42,751 nucleotides of DNA from a virus. A program made the translations under genes and the position numbers. The stretch covers positions 1 to 42,751 of the IMG/VR virus record IMGVR_UViG_3300035698_004386, one strand, 5' to 3'. Numbering within the stretch: the first letter of the stretch is position 1; every line of letters begins with the position of its first letter. Shown piece by piece: positions 2,849 to 21,136 of this stretch. The notes under the pieces were generated by a model. That model was not told where the DNA came from. It saw only the letters and a list, made by a program, of their open reading frames with translations, and did no database searches.

Positions 2849-2889
2849 GCCCCTCGCCGGTGTTCCCTCCGCTGGCGGGGGGCGCTCTA
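2849..2889 (+). terminator. Probable intrinsic terminator of the late/lysis transcript
   Basis: GCCCCTCGCC (2849-2858) can pair with GGCGGGGGGC (2874-2883), giving a 10-bp stem with one G-U pair and a 15-base loop. The tail after the stem (GCTCTATTT) is only moderately T-rich, so termination may be partial. It lies 32 bases after the stop at 2816 and just before a new promoter. Confidence 0.55.
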
Positions 2890-2890
2890 T

Positions 2891-2919
2891 TTGACAATGG
2901 GCGCGGTTGATGATACCTT
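2891..2919 (+). promoter_or_regulatory. Sigma70-like promoter P1, upstream of a candidate noncoding RNA
   Basis: An exact TTGACA (2891-2896) is followed after 17 bases by TACCTT (2914-2919). The same TTGACA-N17-TACCTT arrangement recurs at 3419-3447, which makes chance less likely. The expected start of transcription is near 2926. Confidence 0.65.
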
Positions 2920-2925
2920 AGATAG

Positions 2926-12962: not shown

Positions 12963-13156
12963 CGACTGACCAAATCTTTGAACGCGGACACATTCGGGTA
13001 GCGCTGACCGAAAAAAACCGGTGTACGAAACGCTTCTACGATCCCGACGCCCTGTTAGAGTGGATCAAGTTTTACATCAAGCAAAAAACGTTGTGGGCGC
13101 TCGCAAGGAATCCATCGGGATATTACGCGCTGTATATCGAGAGGAGACGTGATTAA
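12959..13156 (+). CDS. Small basic protein of unknown function
   Basis: A 65-residue, basic, aromatic-rich protein (FYDPDALLEWIKFYIKQKTL) starts at ATG 12959 after AAAGGAG. No motif is recognised. Confidence 0.6.
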   Translation: MTTDQIFERGHIRVALTEKNRCTKRFYDPDALLEWIKFYIKQKTLWALARNPSGYYALYIERRRD

Positions 13157-13157
13157 A

Positions 13158-13328
13158 ATGCTAAGCGATAAATGCCCAACATGTGAAGGCAAGGGGTTCG
13201 TGCTTGTATCCAAGGGCTGGCTATTCAAAATCACCAGTATAGTGGAATGCGACAAGTGCGGCGGGTCCGGCGGCAACTACATTTTCGGTCAGACCATGGA
13301 CCGGGTTCTTGGATTGTGCCATGACTGA
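13158..13328 (+). CDS. DnaJ-type zinc-knuckle mini-protein
   Basis: A 56-residue ORF has CPTCEGKGFV at 6-15 and CDKCGGSGGN at 31-40, a clean DnaJ-like zinc-knuckle pair. ATG 13158 is preferred; GTG 13149 sits too close to the GAGGAG site. It overlaps the next ORF by eight bases. Confidence 0.65.
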   Translation: MLSDKCPTCEGKGFVLVSKGWLFKITSIVECDKCGGSGGNYIFGQTMDRVLGLCHD

Positions 13329-13446: not shown

Positions 13447-13577
13447 GTAGCCAGGTAGAGTGAAAATGAGTACATTGAAAATCTATAGCTTTGAAAAGAC
13501 CCCGCCGAGGGGACGTATCGGGACTTTACCTGGCCGTGAAGTGCTCACCCGATACGCCTTCGGCAGGGTCTTTTTTT
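13447..13577 (+). ncRNA. Candidate small noncoding RNA with terminator hairpin and pseudoknot
   Basis: The RNA of about 130 nt runs from promoter P3 to a T7 tract. Its 3' half is one long hairpin (13495-13573) of about 25 pairs. GCCAGGTA near the 5' end (13450-13457) is exactly complementary to TACCTGGC in the hairpin loop (13527-13534), so the 5' end can pair with the loop as a pseudoknot. A 45-codon ORF (13466-13603) overlaps it, but the hairpin better explains the sequence. The next gene starts 16 bases after the T tract. The RNA could act in trans or attenuate the downstream genes. I do not recognise the family. Confidence 0.6.
13495..13577 (+). terminator. Strong intrinsic terminator of the P3 RNA
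   Basis: AAAGACCC 13495-13502 pairs with GGGTCTTT 13566-13573, GCCGA 13504-13508 with TCGGC 13560-13564, three further pairs continue the helix, and CGTATCGGG 13514-13522 pairs with CCCGATACG 13548-13556. The loop is 25 bases and seven T residues end at 13577. The long broken stem is more than termination needs. Confidence 0.85.
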
Positions 13578-13592
13578 GTCCGGGGGTGAGTG

Positions 13593-13784
13593 ATGAAAGC
13601 TAATGTTTATTGCAATGCCTTGACGTGTAAGCACAATGATAAAGTCGGTAATGATGTGGGCGAATGCTTGAAAGAGTTGGTAGACCTCAGGGTCATCAGC
13701 GACAATGAGATCATGCTGCTAGCTTGTGCAACTTTTGAACCTGTTATGATGGATGAAGCAACCGCGACGGGGGTGAGTGAATGA
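13593..13784 (+). CDS. DUF1540-like small cysteine protein
   Basis: A 63-residue protein starts at ATG 13593 after GGGGGTGAG. The order C-x4-C-K-H-N (CNALTCKHND), a middle Cys, then CATFEP near the end resembles the DUF1540 metal-binding pattern. Function unknown. Confidence 0.6.
   Translation: MKANVYCNALTCKHNDKVGNDVGECLKELVDLRVISDNEIMLLACATFEPVMMDEATATGVSE
13763..13780 (+). repeat. Junction repeat with ribosome binding site, copy 1
   Basis: CGCGACGGGGGTGAGTGA here is identical to 14159-14176, and each lies at a gene junction just before or over a start codon. Shorter forms occur at 13581-13592 and 14400-14411. The GGGGGTGA core is the ribosome binding site. Confidence 0.7.
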
Positions 13785-14176
13785 ACGACGACATTAAAGC
13801 CACTGGATATATGGTTGCGCACGTTGATGAATTTCAAAAGGCCGGGGTCGTGATCGTTCAAATACACTTTCCGGTAGAATGGAAGGGCATCGACCAACTG
13901 AAGCAAATTAGAAAAGTTTGCGCGGCTGGCTTCGACCATCCAATGACGTTAATCGTGGGAGAGGGGGACGTGATGGACAAACCAAATATGTACGGATGTA
14001 TTATCTCAGAAGACGTTTGCATGGCGCATTCCGAACCTCTTGTGTGTGAGCATGGATGCGGTGATGCCGAACCACATTATTGCAAAGAACGTGAAGAGTT
14101 GGGCCTTTTGCTTAGCTCTGATCCGCTTGGGTACGAAGATGAATACAGTGGTGGCCATCGCGACGGGGGTGAGTGA
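13781..14176 (+). CDS. Phage protein of unknown function with Cys/His cluster
   Basis: A 131-residue protein starts at ATG 13781. The N-terminal half is alpha/beta; the C-terminal half has CMAHSEPLVCEHGCGDAEPH and a further HYC, a possible metal site. It lies between two copies of the junction repeat. No family is recognised. Confidence 0.65.
   Translation: MNDDIKATGYMVAHVDEFQKAGVVIVQIHFPVEWKGIDQLKQIRKVCAAGFDHPMTLIVGEGDVMDKPNMYGCIISEDVCMAHSEPLVCEHGCGDAEPHYCKEREELGLLLSSDPLGYEDEYSGGHRDGGE
14159..14176 (+). repeat. Junction repeat with ribosome binding site, copy 2
   Basis: This is an exact 18-base copy of 13763-13780. It ends on the first base of the ATG at 14176, so repeat, ribosome binding site, stop and start all overlap. 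Confidence 0.7.
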
Positions 14177-14415
14177 TGGACTGCTACGATTGGAATAAGT
14201 GCCCGGACGATTGCGATATATGCCCGATCAATGAATACCTCGCATTGGCTCCACTGGACGAATCAACACATGAGTTACACTTGTCGTTCGTAGAAAAGCT
14301 CATTGCCATAGACCCGAACCCACAATCGCCCGAGGGCGTCGCGCTCGACTGGGCGGCAAGGACCGTGGAGGATTATGAAAAGGCTAAATTTCCGGTTGAC
14401 GACGGGGGTGATTAG
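14176..14415 (+). CDS. Small cysteine-motif protein
   Basis: A 79-residue protein opens MDCYDWNKCPDDCDICPINE, four Cys in a likely metal site, followed by helices. ATG 14176 is preferred over GTG 14173. It shares a base with the start of the replication gene downstream. Confidence 0.6.
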   Translation: MDCYDWNKCPDDCDICPINEYLALAPLDESTHELHLSFVEKLIAIDPNPQSPEGVALDWAARTVEDYEKAKFPVDDGGD

Positions 14416-15143
14416 TGCGGTGGTTTAAGCACATGAGTGACGCCCGCGACGACGAACGCCTAGCCGAAGTAATGGAAGAATTAGGGCCGGAAGCAATCGG
14501 TGTCTATTGGATCATCCTTGAAATAATCGCGGATAAAATGGACGGCTCAGACCTATGCTCGGCTCAGTTTCCCATCAAGAAATGGAAGGAAAAGTGCGGG
14601 GTTTCCACTGGAAAGTTCACCAAAATTGCACAGAAACTTGCCGAAAAACCAACAGGTTTTGGACCAAAAGTTGACAAGAAGCCGTTAGTTTATCTAAAGA
14701 TAGTTGGCGAAAAAATGATGATAAAATGCCCTAACCTATTGAAATTTAGGGATGAACACACAAGCCGGCTCAGTAGAAAGTCCGTAGCAAATCCCGAGCA
14801 AGAGTTAGAGTTAGAGTTAGAGTTAGAGTTAGAGTTAGAGGGAGAACCAGAAACAGAGCCCCCCGACAACAACTATTCAATCGACGAAGTTACCTATCTC
14901 GAATCAACGTTCGGCACCGACCGGGCCTTCGGAGTTGTTGATAGGGGTTTTTCTTTTTCTTTTGTCAAACACATAATCGAGAAAACCAAGAAGCGTCCAG
15001 GGGTAGAAGATTGGAGGGCATACGCCTACAAAGTTTTGATGGGCGTTACCGATGGACAAGCCCAGGAGTTCACTGAGGACGATGGGTTGGATTGGCTTGA
15101 CAAGATAGCGAAAGAATTCGCGGAAAGGGGACGTGATGAATAA
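14415..15143 (+). CDS. DnaD-like replication initiation protein
   Basis: This 242-residue protein starts at GTG 14415. Its N-terminus (MRWFKHMSDARDDERLAEVM, then GPEAIGVYWIILEIIADK) is the winged-helix start typical of phage replisome organisers of the DUF4373/DnaD-like type, which bind the phage origin. A linker of alternating Glu-Leu (residues 130-142) separates it from a C-terminal helical domain (VEDWRAYAYKVLMG). The linker is encoded by a perfect hexamer repeat. It precedes a possible helicase loader, as expected for an initiation module. Confidence 0.72.
   Translation: MRWFKHMSDARDDERLAEVMEELGPEAIGVYWIILEIIADKMDGSDLCSAQFPIKKWKEKCGVSTGKFTKIAQKLAEKPTGFGPKVDKKPLVYLKIVGEKMMIKCPNLLKFRDEHTSRLSRKSVANPEQELELELELELELEGEPETEPPDNNYSIDEVTYLESTFGTDRAFGVVDRGFSFSFVKHIIEKTKKRPGVEDWRAYAYKVLMGVTDGQAQEFTEDDGLDWLDKIAKEFAERGRDE
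14802..14840 (+). repeat. GAGTTA hexamer repeat inside the replication gene
   Basis: Six exact GAGTTA units plus GAG run without interruption. They are in frame and encode Glu-Leu pairs. Unit changes would alter linker length without a frameshift. The position inside an initiator gene recalls lambda O, whose own gene holds the origin iterons. Confidence 0.9.
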
Positions 15144-15519
15144 AATCTACTTTGCAGTGATAGGGAAAACCGGTATCGAAACGGGATTAGGACCACTTAT
15201 TGCAGACAATGAGGCAGACCCACTGGAATGGGTGGTGAAAGTAAATAGACGTTACGGCAGGGACAAGGCGGACGTTGCAACCGTCGTTCCCGTCGCGGTG
15301 ATCCCCGTGGCCGTGTTGGACTTTAGCAAAATAGAGGCGGCACTATCGAGGCTCAATCACGACATCCCGCATGGAACGATAAAAGAGCCGTGGGATGGGG
15401 ACGTTTGGGAATTGATAGAATTTATTGACAAACTCAAGGCCGCGCTGGTATATTGCGAAAACACAGAATCTAGGGACGCCCTATGCCAATTAATTAAAGA
15501 ATGCCCGAAGGAGGGATGA
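15136..15519 (+). CDS. Protein of unknown function in replication module
   Basis: A 127-residue protein starts at ATG 15136 (GTG 15133 possible) and overlaps the initiator by eight bases. It has a hydrophobic beta segment (ATVVPVAVIPVAVLDF) and a C-terminal helical half. No domain is recognised. Confidence 0.6.
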   Translation: MNKIYFAVIGKTGIETGLGPLIADNEADPLEWVVKVNRRYGRDKADVATVVPVAVIPVAVLDFSKIEAALSRLNHDIPHGTIKEPWDGDVWELIEFIDKLKAALVYCENTESRDALCQLIKECPKEG

Positions 15520-17023: not shown

Positions 17024-17649
17024 AAACCAACAAAATCTTAATCGTCGCGTGTGCGGTCATCACCACCTTCGCCCTCGCGGTCCTTGCCTTGATCTTCGCC
17101 CGGTCAGTGCCCACAGTCGATCAGGCCGACGGATTCGAGCAATGCATCGCCGGGTGGTCGGAGTGCGTTTTGATGGCGGATGACGTTTTGGCTAAATACC
17201 ACGAGCTTGAGGCAACGACGGTGGACACCGATAAGCCGATTGGTTTATTAAGGGTAAAAGACGGGGACTCGATGGGAAAGATGATTTTCGACCCGCCAGA
17301 GTTTGAGATAACCCGTATTCGTGATCCCGACACTTATGAAATCTTAGCTCATGTCAGCGACTACCACGGCAACATCACAAGCGATCAACCCATGAGGTAC
17401 ATCTTTGGAGTCGGAAATGTAGAATCAATTTTGCGCGTCCTTCCAGACGGCTCGACAGTGGCCCCGTTGTGGCCGACTTACAATGCCGATGGAGACTACC
17501 TAGCAGGCCCAGGCGAGCCGCTTGAACTCGACCTCATGTATTTTGACGAACTAAAAGTCACGGTCGACGGCGACACCAAGGGAAACGTTCACGAGGTGGT
17601 CGTGTTTTGCGAGGGCGGAGAAACCGTGAGCATGGGGTGTGACCGATGA
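17020..17649 (+). CDS. Membrane-anchored protein with large extracytoplasmic domain
   Basis: This 209-residue protein starts at ATG 17020. Residues 5-27 (KILIVACAVITTFALAVLAL and on) form a signal anchor; no clear cleavage site follows. The remaining 180 residues are beta-rich and acidic and would lie outside the cytoplasmic membrane. An early-expressed anchored protein could block superinfection or alter the envelope, but no family is recognised. Confidence 0.65.
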   Translation: MKTNKILIVACAVITTFALAVLALIFARSVPTVDQADGFEQCIAGWSECVLMADDVLAKYHELEATTVDTDKPIGLLRVKDGDSMGKMIFDPPEFEITRIRDPDTYEILAHVSDYHGNITSDQPMRYIFGVGNVESILRVLPDGSTVAPLWPTYNADGDYLAGPGEPLELDLMYFDELKVTVDGDTKGNVHEVVVFCEGGETVSMGCDR

Positions 17650-18128
17650 AAATCATAGATGATCTTCGTGAAATAGTACGCCTGTTGGAGGTCATCGACG
17701 CTGCTAAAAAGCGCGATAAGGTTCATTGGTGGTGGGGGCTGACGATTGAACAGAGGCTGGTGACAATTTCCTATGTTGTTTTGGCATTGTTTGTGATTTG
17801 TTGCGCATTGCACTTTAGCTTAACCGACCCTAGGGATGTTATCAACGAACGCGACCAATTCTTAACACTGGAAAGCGGGTCAACTCTGCTAATGAGCATC
17901 GCATACGAAAACAGTAGCCTTTCAATCGCTTCACATACAGATAAAGAACTTATCCCGCAAGCAGGAATTGACTCCGGCGATACCATTAAGTGGTTTGACC
18001 TTAACGCGGTTGAGGGTGGCGGGTATGATCATTACCCATATATTAAGGCTGACCATTTTAGGGTTAGCGCGCTACCGCGTGTGAGGTGTCCACGGTGTCG
18101 GCGTAAATTAAAAGGAGGGACCAAATGA
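17646..18128 (+). CDS. Single-TM protein with C-terminal zinc knuckle
   Basis: The 160-residue protein has an N-terminal helix, a TM segment at 38-58 (LVTISYVVLALFVICCALHF) and a C-terminal CPRCRRKLKGG. It overlaps the gene before by four bases, and the two membrane proteins may act together. Function unknown. Confidence 0.6.
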   Translation: MKIIDDLREIVRLLEVIDAAKKRDKVHWWWGLTIEQRLVTISYVVLALFVICCALHFSLTDPRDVINERDQFLTLESGSTLLMSIAYENSSLSIASHTDKELIPQAGIDSGDTIKWFDLNAVEGGGYDHYPYIKADHFRVSALPRVRCPRCRRKLKGGTK

Positions 18129-18277
18129 AAGTCAGCGACATAAAACTTGAGGACTTAACGCCGGAAAAGATGACGGAAATAACGCGGTTTAGGACAGAAT
18201 TTAACGCCGCCAAGGATTACAAAGATTTTGCCAACGCAATATCGCCATATAGGAGGGAAGATGAAAATAACGATTGA
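18125..18277 (+). CDS. Small protein overlapping the beta clamp gene
   Basis: A 50-residue ORF (MKVSDIKLEDLTPEKMTEIT and a helical tail) starts at ATG 18125 with an ATGA overlap and ends 17 bases inside the clamp gene. It has a good upstream GGAGGG. Function unknown. Confidence 0.55.
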   Translation: MKVSDIKLEDLTPEKMTEITRFRTEFNAAKDYKDFANAISPYRREDENND

Positions 18278-19358
18278 GCGCGACGCGCTTGTCGCAGGGC
18301 TGGCGTCGGCAAAGCGCCTTGTGTCGCACGGCAACGTAATGGACGTGCTGAAATGCTGTCTACTAACCGCCGAAGACAACTCGTTGTTGATAGCAGCCAC
18401 CGACTTGAACGTATCGACCACCAACAAAATCCCGGTTGATTGCCAGAGTCATGGGTCCGTCGTGGTTGACACTGTGCGGCTATTTAAGGTTGCGAGCGCC
18501 CTCGCTCCCGGCCCTGTTGACATCGAATTCATGCCCGATGATTTTGCAATCAAGGTAAAAAGCGGCAAGCGGGTGGCGAAGATCAAGACACTGGACGCCG
18601 AGGATTATCCCAAAATTGACACTGGCGACGATCAAAAATATTGCGAGATTCCACCAGGCGTCCTAGTTGAAATGATAACGAAGGTTATAGGGGCCATCGG
18701 CGAAGAGATTGGGCGTTACGTGCTAGCCGGGGCCTACATTGAATTTGTCGAGGATGGCGGTTTGTTGATGGCCGCGACCGATGGGCACATTATGTGTAGG
18801 GTTTCAAGGGAAATTAACCATAACGGACTTACCGCAGACGGAGTTATAGTTCCCCGTGATGGTATTGTCGAGATTTTAGAGGCGTCAAGGTGCTCGCCTG
18901 ATTCGGCAAGCGTGGCCATCAGTGAAAAAAGCTTCTATTTCAAGACAGACGATTTTTCCATAGCGGCGCGAACTATAAGCGGCAAGTTTCCATTGAGGAG
19001 CATTAATCAAATAGTTGACCTTGGATGGCAAAGCAAAGCGGTCGTTGATACCGCTCAGATGGTTGATGCTGTAAAATTCGCATCAATAGGAAACCTTCTT
19101 TCAATAACCATGGAATTCAAGCCAGAATCAATCATCGTCAGTGGGAACAACCCGTTAACCGGCAAAGCCGAAAATGAGGTAGACGCCAAGCATGATGGCG
19201 ATGAAATGAAATTTAACGTTAATCCGTCGCTGATGATAGGATCGTTGAAAAACATGGGAGAAAAAACGACAATCGAGACTATAGACGAATTGTCCCCATT
19301 GCTTTTTAGGTCTGATGACAAGGACTATTTGGCAGCGGTGATGATTCAACGGCGATAA
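18261..19358 (+). CDS. dnaN: DNA polymerase III beta sliding clamp
   Basis: This 365-residue protein follows the whole bacterial clamp pattern of three repeated domains. It opens MKITIERDALVAGLASAKRL, has a LLIAATDLNVSTT strand in domain 1, LLMAATDGHIMCRV in domain 2 and ends YLAAVMIQRR where host clamps have a similar C-terminal strand. It would hold a polymerase on DNA. No DNA polymerase gene is visible in the genome, so it presumably serves, or competes for, the host replicase. ATG 18261 follows AGGAGGG. Confidence 0.9.
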   Translation: MKITIERDALVAGLASAKRLVSHGNVMDVLKCCLLTAEDNSLLIAATDLNVSTTNKIPVDCQSHGSVVVDTVRLFKVASALAPGPVDIEFMPDDFAIKVKSGKRVAKIKTLDAEDYPKIDTGDDQKYCEIPPGVLVEMITKVIGAIGEEIGRYVLAGAYIEFVEDGGLLMAATDGHIMCRVSREINHNGLTADGVIVPRDGIVEILEASRCSPDSASVAISEKSFYFKTDDFSIAARTISGKFPLRSINQIVDLGWQSKAVVDTAQMVDAVKFASIGNLLSITMEFKPESIIVSGNNPLTGKAENEVDAKHDGDEMKFNVNPSLMIGSLKNMGEKTTIETIDELSPLLFRSDDKDYLAAVMIQRR

Positions 19359-19369
19359 AGGAGGATGAA

Positions 19370-19666
19370 ATGATCGAGAAATGGATCGAGTCAATGGTAT
19401 GGGTTGGTAGCGGGTTCCATTATACGACACACTCCGCCAGGGAATGCCCAAAGTGTGAGCAGATACATACGTATATGGGGCCGCCGCCTGATGAATGCAA
19501 GTCTTGTGGGTGGCGTCCGACCGACCGGTTAACGGAGTTGGAGGATGAACTAAATTTGACACTGATAGAACGGCTATCTGGGCGTATGCCTGTCAAGGGC
19601 GACGTTTCGCTTGTCATAGAGGCCGTGCTGTTGTTGATCAAAGCGGAAAAGGAGCGAGCGGGATGA
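19370..19666 (+). CDS. Small zinc-ribbon protein
   Basis: The 98-residue protein has CPKCEQIH (26-33) and CKSCGWRP (43-50), a zinc ribbon, followed by two helices. It starts at ATG 19370 after AGGAGG. No family is recognised. Confidence 0.65.
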   Translation: MIEKWIESMVWVGSGFHYTTHSARECPKCEQIHTYMGPPPDECKSCGWRPTDRLTELEDELNLTLIERLSGRMPVKGDVSLVIEAVLLLIKAEKERAG

Positions 19667-19956
19667 ATGGCCCAAAACCATGTTGTGGCGATAGCATCAT
19701 CTACGTTGGAGGCGGCAAATTTAGCACGTATGACGAAACATTTACACTAAATGGGACATGCCACAATTGCGGCGTTGAAATGACAGTTGAGGTAACTGGA
19801 TGGACTGTAATGGATATTGAAAAGGCCGAACGCGGCAAACCGACCGACGACAATGAGACTGACCTTAAATCATACTTGCGTAGATACGAGGAGTACGAGC
19901 GTAAATGCGATGATATCAAGTTCACTTGTAAACCGACCGACGACAAGGAGGGGTAG
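19663..19956 (+). CDS. Small Cys-pair protein with duplicated KPTDD motif
   Basis: A 97-residue protein starts at ATG 19663. It has CCGDSI at the N-terminus and CHNCGVEM in the middle, then two KPTDD segments encoded by near-identical DNA (about 19849 and 19931). The second copy leads into a GACGACAAGGAGGG string that recurs before the gene at 20198. Function unknown. Confidence 0.6.
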   Translation: MNGPKPCCGDSIIYVGGGKFSTYDETFTLNGTCHNCGVEMTVEVTGWTVMDIEKAERGKPTDDNETDLKSYLRRYEEYERKCDDIKFTCKPTDDKEG

Positions 19957-19959
19957 TTT

Positions 19960-20142
19960 ATGAAAAAGGGTGTGGTGATTTATACAGACAGCGGTGGTGG
20001 GTATGCAGTGATGACGGCCATAGACTTGCGTGAAATAGCCAAGGGCTTAGATGCGGTAAATGTAAGAAAGGAAAAGCAGCGCAATATTCGCGTGTTTATT
20101 GATGGGTGCATAGAGGAATTTGAACTTGAGGACATAACCTAG
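19960..20142 (+). CDS. Small protein of unknown function
   Basis: A 60-residue protein starts at ATG 19960 after AAGGAGGGG. It is alpha/beta (KKGVVIYTDSGGGYAVMTAI). Its stop lies two bases before promoter P4. Confidence 0.55.
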   Translation: MKKGVVIYTDSGGGYAVMTAIDLREIAKGLDAVNVRKEKQRNIRVFIDGCIEEFELEDIT

Positions 20143-20143
20143 C

Positions 20144-20173
20144 TTGACAACCACCGCCAAAGCGCGGTAAACA
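20144..20173 (+). promoter_or_regulatory. Sigma70-like promoter P4
   Basis: TTGACA (20144-20149) is followed by TAAACA (20168-20173) after 18 bases. TTGACAACCACCGCC and a later CGGTAAA are shared with P5 at 21023, so one promoter seems copied from the other. It precedes the ParB-like gene. Confidence 0.5.
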
Positions 20174-20197
20174 GATCGACGACAAGGAGGGATGAAG

Positions 20198-21040
20198 ATG
20201 GAATATATTAAAACGGCCAACGGAACTATTGGAGTAAGCATTAAACTCGTTACGCCAAAAATGGCAGATGCTTGGCTTGGCAAAATGGGACCAAACAGAA
20301 ACTACCGTTCTGCCAGCTCAAAAATGATGGCCGACGACATTATTCGTGGTTGGTGGAAAACGACTCACCAAGGAATTGCGTTTGATGAAAACGGCGATTT
20401 AATAGATGGCCAACACCGGTTACATGCAATTATAATTGCTGGCAAGCCGGTTGAAATGTTGGTGTTTACGGGTGTGCTCAAAAACACCAGGATAGCAATC
20501 GACCAACATAGTCGAAGGTCACCAGCAGACAATATATTTTTTGAGACTGGGCAAAAGCCACCCAAGTCAGCGATCGGTTCATTGCAAAGATTTTTGGCAG
20601 GCCCAAACAGGGGTCATCCCAAGTTATCGGTGTCTGCCATTAACCAAATGTATGCAAGGCATTCCGATGCGATTAGTTTTGTAACGTCATCAATCCCGGG
20701 CGATAACTCCAAATTGTCTGGAATCAGGATAGCGTCCGTTTTCGGAGCATTGATGCGGGCATACTACAACGAAGATCATGTGTTGCTTGCCCGGTTTGGT
20801 GGAATTCTTGGTAGTGGATTTTCTACAGGGGATGATCGTGACCGCGCAGTAATTTATTTGCGTGATTATTTAAAAAACACATGTGATGAAACCGGTGCGT
20901 CGGTGAGGCTCAAAAAGTACCTTAAGACAGAACGTGCGGTAGTGGCATTTTGTGGCAATGAACACTTGAAAAAATTAGTGTGTCCATCAACTGAACTTTA
21001 CCCAAACATTAGAAGAGCCGACTTGACAACCACCGCCTAG
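20198..21040 (+). CDS. ParB-like nuclease-domain protein
   Basis: This 280-residue protein carries the phage ParB/sulfiredoxin-like core: a W-x-x-T-x-Q-G-I-A-F-D strand, the hallmark DGQHRLHAI (about 69-77), a VFTGV strand and DQHSRRSPADN. Such proteins occur in many phages with no settled role; NTPase, nuclease and DNA-binding roles are known in the superfamily. ATG 20198 sits seven bases after AAGGAGGG; ATG 20192 is too close. The gene lies between two related promoters, P4 and P5, and the -35 box of P5 is inside its last codons. Confidence 0.72.
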   Translation: MEYIKTANGTIGVSIKLVTPKMADAWLGKMGPNRNYRSASSKMMADDIIRGWWKTTHQGIAFDENGDLIDGQHRLHAIIIAGKPVEMLVFTGVLKNTRIAIDQHSRRSPADNIFFETGQKPPKSAIGSLQRFLAGPNRGHPKLSVSAINQMYARHSDAISFVTSSIPGDNSKLSGIRIASVFGALMRAYYNEDHVLLARFGGILGSGFSTGDDRDRAVIYLRDYLKNTCDETGASVRLKKYLKTERAVVAFCGNEHLKKLVCPSTELYPNIRRADLTTTA

Positions 21041-21051
21041 CACGGTAAAAT
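21023..21051 (+). promoter_or_regulatory. Sigma70-like promoter P5
   Basis: TTGACA (21023-21028), a 17-base spacer and TAAAAT (21046-21051) make one of the best promoters in the genome. It overlaps the last codons and stop of the ParB-like gene. The expected start is G21058, the first base of a long stem. Confidence 0.78.
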
Positions 21052-21057
21052 ACAATC

Positions 21058-21118
21058 GGTGGTGGCAGGCGGGTCTTTCTCCTTTTCGCCCGTGCTTACC
21101 CAGGCAACTGCCACCACT
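21058..21118 (+). promoter_or_regulatory. 5' leader stem-loop at the P5 transcript start
   Basis: GGTGGTGGCAG (21058-21068) pairs with CTGCCACCACT (21108-21118), 11 pairs with one G-U, closing a 39-base pyrimidine-rich loop. The helix would begin at the very 5' end of the P5 RNA and finish 18 bases before the start at 21137. There is no T tract, so it looks like an RNA-stabilising or regulatory leader and not a terminator. Confidence 0.6.
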
Positions 21119-21136
21119 GTCTTAAAAAGGGGGTTC

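Follow-up and report, generated by a model that had tools for sequence, protein, structure and literature searches.

In phage lambda, the pR'-tR' leader (6S RNA) and Q represent an arrangement in which a promoter, a short leader RNA, a terminator, and an operon follow one another. In E. coli pyrBI, the terminator lies inside a 135-bp leader gene, and ribosomes seldom catch up with polymerase in the first 100 bp of a gene (PMC4824070). Some transcripts of isrK, in the Gifsy-1 prophage, continue past the IsrK terminator into orf45-anrP (PMC4825925, where Q is also summarised).

Here, we describe a locus with a related layout. The window, by which we mean the whole stretch of DNA analysed, is a 42.7-kb virus record that encodes a terminase, portal, capsid, tail tape measure, Erf, SSB, a DnaN-like clamp, an endolysin, and a replication-initiation-like protein (14415-15143). 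The locus lies in the early/replication region among co-directional genes. It consists of a promoter consensus (P3), a long hairpin with a U-tract, a 12-pair match between the hairpin loop and the region of the predicted RNA 5' end, and an SD 5 nt past the U-tract. We tentatively consider a cis-acting terminated phage leader RNA that attenuates the downstream replication genes to be the most likely reading, one that we lean toward without full conviction. The attenuator is possibly translation-gated, since the terminator, like that of pyrBI, lies within an open frame, here of 45 codons.

Promoter P3 and the terminator hairpin

P3 and the terminator share the same gap and the same strand within a run of co-directional genes (Table 1). 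Sites of the P3 type (extended -10, at least 10/12) occur twice on the + strand, compared with 0.05 expected per strand from mononucleotide shuffles. The transcription start predicted from the P3 sequence is 13447-13449, and a discrete ~130-nt RNA from this promoter is well predicted. The first-pass annotation had proposed that P3 drives an RNA ending in a terminator hairpin; the promoter consensus, hairpin, and U-tract are all in place, with the transcript as a prediction from them. The feature as a whole is confirmed as real and is slightly stronger than first described. A search of the predicted RNA against Rfam gave nothing that reaches a gathering threshold, the weak matches being hairpin-only miRNA models, and a tRNA/tmRNA search found none.

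Table 1. Positions of the features of the locus in the window
Feature	Positions	Strand	Remarks
Promoter P3	13413..13441	+	TTGACA, 17-nt spacer, TAGTAT with TGn (extended -10); sigma70-type, by consensus match only
Predicted terminated leader RNA	13448..13577	+	~130 nt; predicted from promoter and terminator
5' strand of loop match	13450..13461	+	GCCAGGUAGAGU; covers the weak SD (AGGU) of the leader frame
Open leader frame	13466..13603	+	45 codons from ATG 13466 (47 from GTG 13460); spans the whole hairpin and overlaps the start of the next gene
Terminator hairpin	13493..13575	+	27-pair stem, arms 13493-13522 / 13548-13575, 25-nt loop
Loop strand of match	13523..13534	+	ACUUUACCUGGC; complements 13450-13461; first 7 nt alternatively pair with 13536-13542 in the loop
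U7 tract	13571..13577	+	sequence
SD and first downstream gene	13582..13784	+	ATG 13593; SD begins 5 nt after the U-tract

The GC-rich hairpin is followed immediately by U7, as in an intrinsic (Rho-independent) terminator. Its 25-nt loop, ACUUUACCUGGCCGUGAAGUGCUCA (13523-13547), has the size originally given, but the stem counts 27 pairs and not 25. In the nested minimum-energy fold, 7 further pairs form inside this loop and leave a CUGGCC loop and a GCUCA bulge. At -50.8 kcal/mol, the hairpin is the lowest-energy 100-nt fold on either strand of the 42.7 kb, against a mean of -24.1 kcal/mol (sd 6.1) for 100-nt folds of the + strand. The predicted RNA has a fold z of -4.3 relative to dinucleotide shuffles. 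A second strong hairpin, of 14 pairs, lies at window 2849-2920, and then a TTGACA element at ~2892 with a possible -10; it probably marks where the late/lysis operon ends and the early one starts.

These elements could also be a plain strong promoter and intrinsic terminator in an early operon, where the hairpin would insulate the replication genes from upstream transcription and be slightly leaky, and where the loop complement would be a functionless product of chance. In its lower part, AAAAGACCC..GGGTCTTTT, the stem has the sequence of an ordinary terminator, in agreement with this reading. A stem of this length, however, far exceeds what termination needs, and a promoter that serves only to feed a terminator calls for explanation. 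On this evidence, together with that on the loop match given below, we consider a plain terminator unlikely, yet the strongest of the rivals.

Pairing between the loop and the 5' end

That the loop carries an exact complement of a sequence near the 5' end was noted in the earlier annotation, and the 8-base match stands: GCCAGGTA (13450-13457) and TACCTGGC (13527-13534) are exact complements. The match in fact grows to 12 contiguous pairs, one of them G-U (Table 1), and its 5' strand lies 1-3 nt in from the predicted start of the RNA, where ten bases had been given. The strands connecting a candidate pseudoknot would be ~32 and 13 nt long. The loop's first base is also where the 3' strand of the match starts, which would place the two helices directly against each other in the manner of an H-type pseudoknot.

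The proposed pseudoknot closing the RNA is permitted, but its energy is marginal. By a rough energy sum, the pseudoknot differs from the nested fold by -5 to +0.4 kcal/mol, according to the penalty assumed: a pseudoknot penalty of 9.6 kcal/mol puts it 5 kcal/mol below the nested fold, and one of 15 kcal/mol makes the two approximately equal. In nested folds of growing transcripts, the 5'/loop helix has a probability of ~99% for 3' ends at 13536-13552, beyond which the terminator stem takes over. The match is then absent from the nested model because the match and the terminator stem cannot both be represented in it. The match could tie down the 5' end while the terminator remains formed.

A switch between two folds, the other possibility raised at the outset, applies in one respect. 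The match competes with the 7-pair helix inside the loop, but it uses neither arm of the terminator stem, so there is no competition with the terminator and a classical terminator/antiterminator switch is excluded. We rejected the antiterminator switch as a candidate on this ground.

All chance figures for the loop match were calculated after the feature had been noticed and should be read as post hoc. In dinucleotide shuffles of the leader and loop, 8 Watson-Crick pairs arise with p = 0.009, and 12 pairs with G-U allowed with p = 0.003. Among 6092 places in the window with the same geometry, the 8-pair length is reached in 38 and the 12-pair length in 29 (~0.5-0.6%). A duplex at least as stable occurs in 240 of the 6092 (4%). 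These values, like the marginal energy gain of the pseudoknot, leave room for the plain terminator described above; against it, the match is flush with both the start of the RNA and that of the loop, and for 12 pairs flush with the loop start mononucleotide shuffles give p ~0.0003. The chance statistics are suggestive and not decisive. The putative self-pairing loop is the sole unusual element of the feature.

Read-through and the leader frame

The first-pass annotation had included an attenuator for the genes from 13593 among its suggestions, and this is the reading best supported by position. As in an attenuator or other terminated leader, a same-strand promoter lies just upstream of the terminator and a gene without its own promoter, as judged by consensus, just downstream. 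Besides P3, no + strand promoter with at least 9/12 matches and 16-18 spacing was found between 11000 and 15425; at looser settings, the closest candidate is at 13974 and has a 19-nt spacer. Since the downstream SD follows so closely on the U-tract and no comparable promoter precedes 15425, the genes from 13593, including the replication-initiator-like gene, probably need read-through. Barring an unrecognised promoter, only transcripts passing the terminator would reach them, though unrecognised (non-sigma70) promoters could serve them. It is chiefly this dependence on read-through that argues for a cis role. Among small genes behind the replication-initiator-like gene, at window 15425-15454, lies the region's best consensus promoter, TTGACA-18-TATATT with TGn.

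In the proposed attenuator, polymerase starting at P3 would meet a very strong intrinsic terminator after 130 nt, and because of this most transcripts would end short and highly structured. Gene 13593 and the co-directional genes that follow, among them the replication-initiator-like gene at 14415, would be expressed from read-through transcripts alone. Translation across the hairpin, along the 45-codon frame, would be the most plausible trigger. A ribosome following polymerase closely would, as in pyrBI, prevent the hairpin from closing, and the start of gene 13593, otherwise buried, would be opened as well. Without a loaded ribosome, the loop would pair with the ribosome-binding region of the leader as the terminator is completed, and the RNA would be locked "off". 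Since the 5' strand of the match covers the weak SD of the leader frame, pairing would shut off leader initiation, which may be the role of the match.

Two observations bear on this gating. Among 36 gene starts, that of gene 13593 lies in the least accessible region (0.23 unpaired in local folds), and the modeled burial would fit a need for translational coupling, with the leader frame ending at 13601-13603, ~10 nt inside the gene. The coding status of the leader frame itself, as judged from sequence, is equivocal. Its codon score ranks at the 9th percentile among coding stretches and at the 89th among open off-frame ones, open frames of this length follow 5.5% of off-frame ATGs, and no protein relatives of the frame were found. 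We note that its SD energy, -4.0, is weaker than that of 31 of the 36 gene starts. Moreover, a pyrBI-like system needs a pause site at which the ribosome can catch up, and 13466-13493, with no U run longer than 3, shows no U-rich pause region of the pyrBI type. The weak SD and ambiguous codon usage of the leader frame, the need for a pause site, the chance of unrecognised promoters downstream, and the failure to find homologues (see below) all count against the attenuator reading. The translation-gating step is its weakest part and, even if the locus is an attenuator, seems rather unlikely to us. We also considered the loop as an anti-SD for the next gene and do not claim it; the match is 7 nt, with p = 0.025 by length and 0.32 by energy. 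The start-region word GGGGGTGAGTG(A)ATG is common to three successive genes (window 13582, 13769, 14165), where it overlaps the end of the preceding gene, and looks like a duplicated gene-boundary module.

At its boldest, the attenuator would be self-locking: the terminator loop would capture the ribosome-binding 5' end of its own nascent transcript, and only a pre-loaded ribosome would prevent the lock and break the terminator, with an all-or-none outcome of short RNA or replication-gene mRNA. We regard this form as very doubtful. If the loop match is functional, the terminator loop would be a regulatory strand, sequestering the beginning of the transcript to which it belongs, and would offer simple timing of the replication genes. 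If it is not, the locus is a strong phage terminator behind a strong promoter and of modest interest. Either way, it is a probable control point before the replication genes of a phage with almost no sequenced relatives.

Relatives and comparison with known systems

No near relatives of the window were found among 50,697 phage records, and blastn of the feature locus against phages and plasmids returned no homologue. A stem pattern scan of viral contigs gave none, and a pattern combining the 5'/loop pair with the U-tract gave 4 matches in viral contigs, none of which resembles the RNA of the window once folded. Protein-based scans of viral contigs (rep, DnaN-like, leader frame, gene 13781, TerL, and Erf), together with TerL in genomes, led to no RNA homologue; the rep and TerL scans returned only distant relatives. 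A 17-mer from the loop has 54 matches in genomes, none aligning to the RNA much past the 17-mer itself. One IMG/VR contig (L003 1-8708) is 99.99% identical to window 17106-25813 and is an independent assembly of the same phage that stops short of the feature. A distant phage (L002), whose rep is 29% identical, has a long hairpin just before rep (1383-1456). The 5' arm of this hairpin (TCTCCC) also complements the rep SD (GGGAGA), and the hairpin is a possible translational switch. We considered it (about 1383-1440) as a relative of the feature and rejected it, as the two are unrelated in sequence.

The first-pass annotation had also suggested a decoy RNA or a trans-acting sRNA. The locus could instead be an autonomous promoter-RNA-terminator unit for a stable trans-acting phage sRNA (or sponge), in which the pseudoknot would shield the 5' end from decay in a RydC-like manner. 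A discrete unit of typical sRNA size that ends in a U-tract is consistent with this reading, prophages encode such RNAs (AgvB, PMC4104026), and the pseudoknot of RydC is required for stability in vivo (PMC4337610). Against it, no conserved seed, Rfam match, or homologue was found, and a search of the window for targets in the phage itself gave nothing beyond chance. A cis role is also suggested by the position of the terminator, immediately before the next gene's SD. We judge a trans-acting RNA to be distinctly unlikely.

Just upstream of the feature, window 13149-13328 encodes a 59-aa zinc-ribbon (CxxCxGxG) protein with weak matches to DnaJ, anti-TRAP, Lar, and Q-like zinc fingers. Least probable is a leader like lambda pR'-tR', in which a phage Q-type antiterminator would load near the promoter and carry polymerase through the terminator; the promoter-leader-terminator-operon layout is the same and the zinc-finger gene with its weak Q-like and anti-TRAP matches lies next to it, but those matches reflect a generic CxxCxGxG zinc finger (best Pfam DnaJ, below its cutoff) in a very short protein, no other antiterminator was seen among the scanned proteins, and the genes downstream are replication genes and not the late genes of a Q-dependent leader.

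The attenuator that we favour can be set beside the described systems. Unlike the phage that carries lambda pR'-tR', the phage studied here has no convincing Q-family protein, and its terminator precedes replication genes. The likeness to RydC (PMC4337610) is that of a small RNA with a pseudoknot fold, a candidate one here, and a 3' U tail. RydC, however, has an exposed 5' seed, is about half the length, and is conserved, whereas the 5' end of the leader would be paired; the two have no sequence relation. IsrK of the Salmonella prophage Gifsy-1 (PMC4825925) is similar more loosely, in that a phage promoter gives both a short terminated RNA and a read-through mRNA and a small ORF overlaps the next gene, to which it is coupled in IsrK. 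In IsrK the small ORF lies after the terminator instead, and the target of the short RNA, acting in trans, is the long one; a sequence relation was neither found nor expected. Leader variants of S. gallolyticus pil1 share the architecture of a terminator within a leader frame (PMC3894217). The layout also matches that of the pyrBI attenuator (PMC4824070, PMC5021804), where an intrinsic terminator also lies within a short leader gene that runs to the next gene, 135 bp in both cases (counted here from ATG 13466). In pyrBI, a trailing ribosome can suppress termination; our frame is a putative counterpart by layout alone. The locus differs from pyrBI in having neither pyrimidine genes nor an evident U-rich pause tract, and in a much longer stem and a loop that complements the 5' end of its own RNA.
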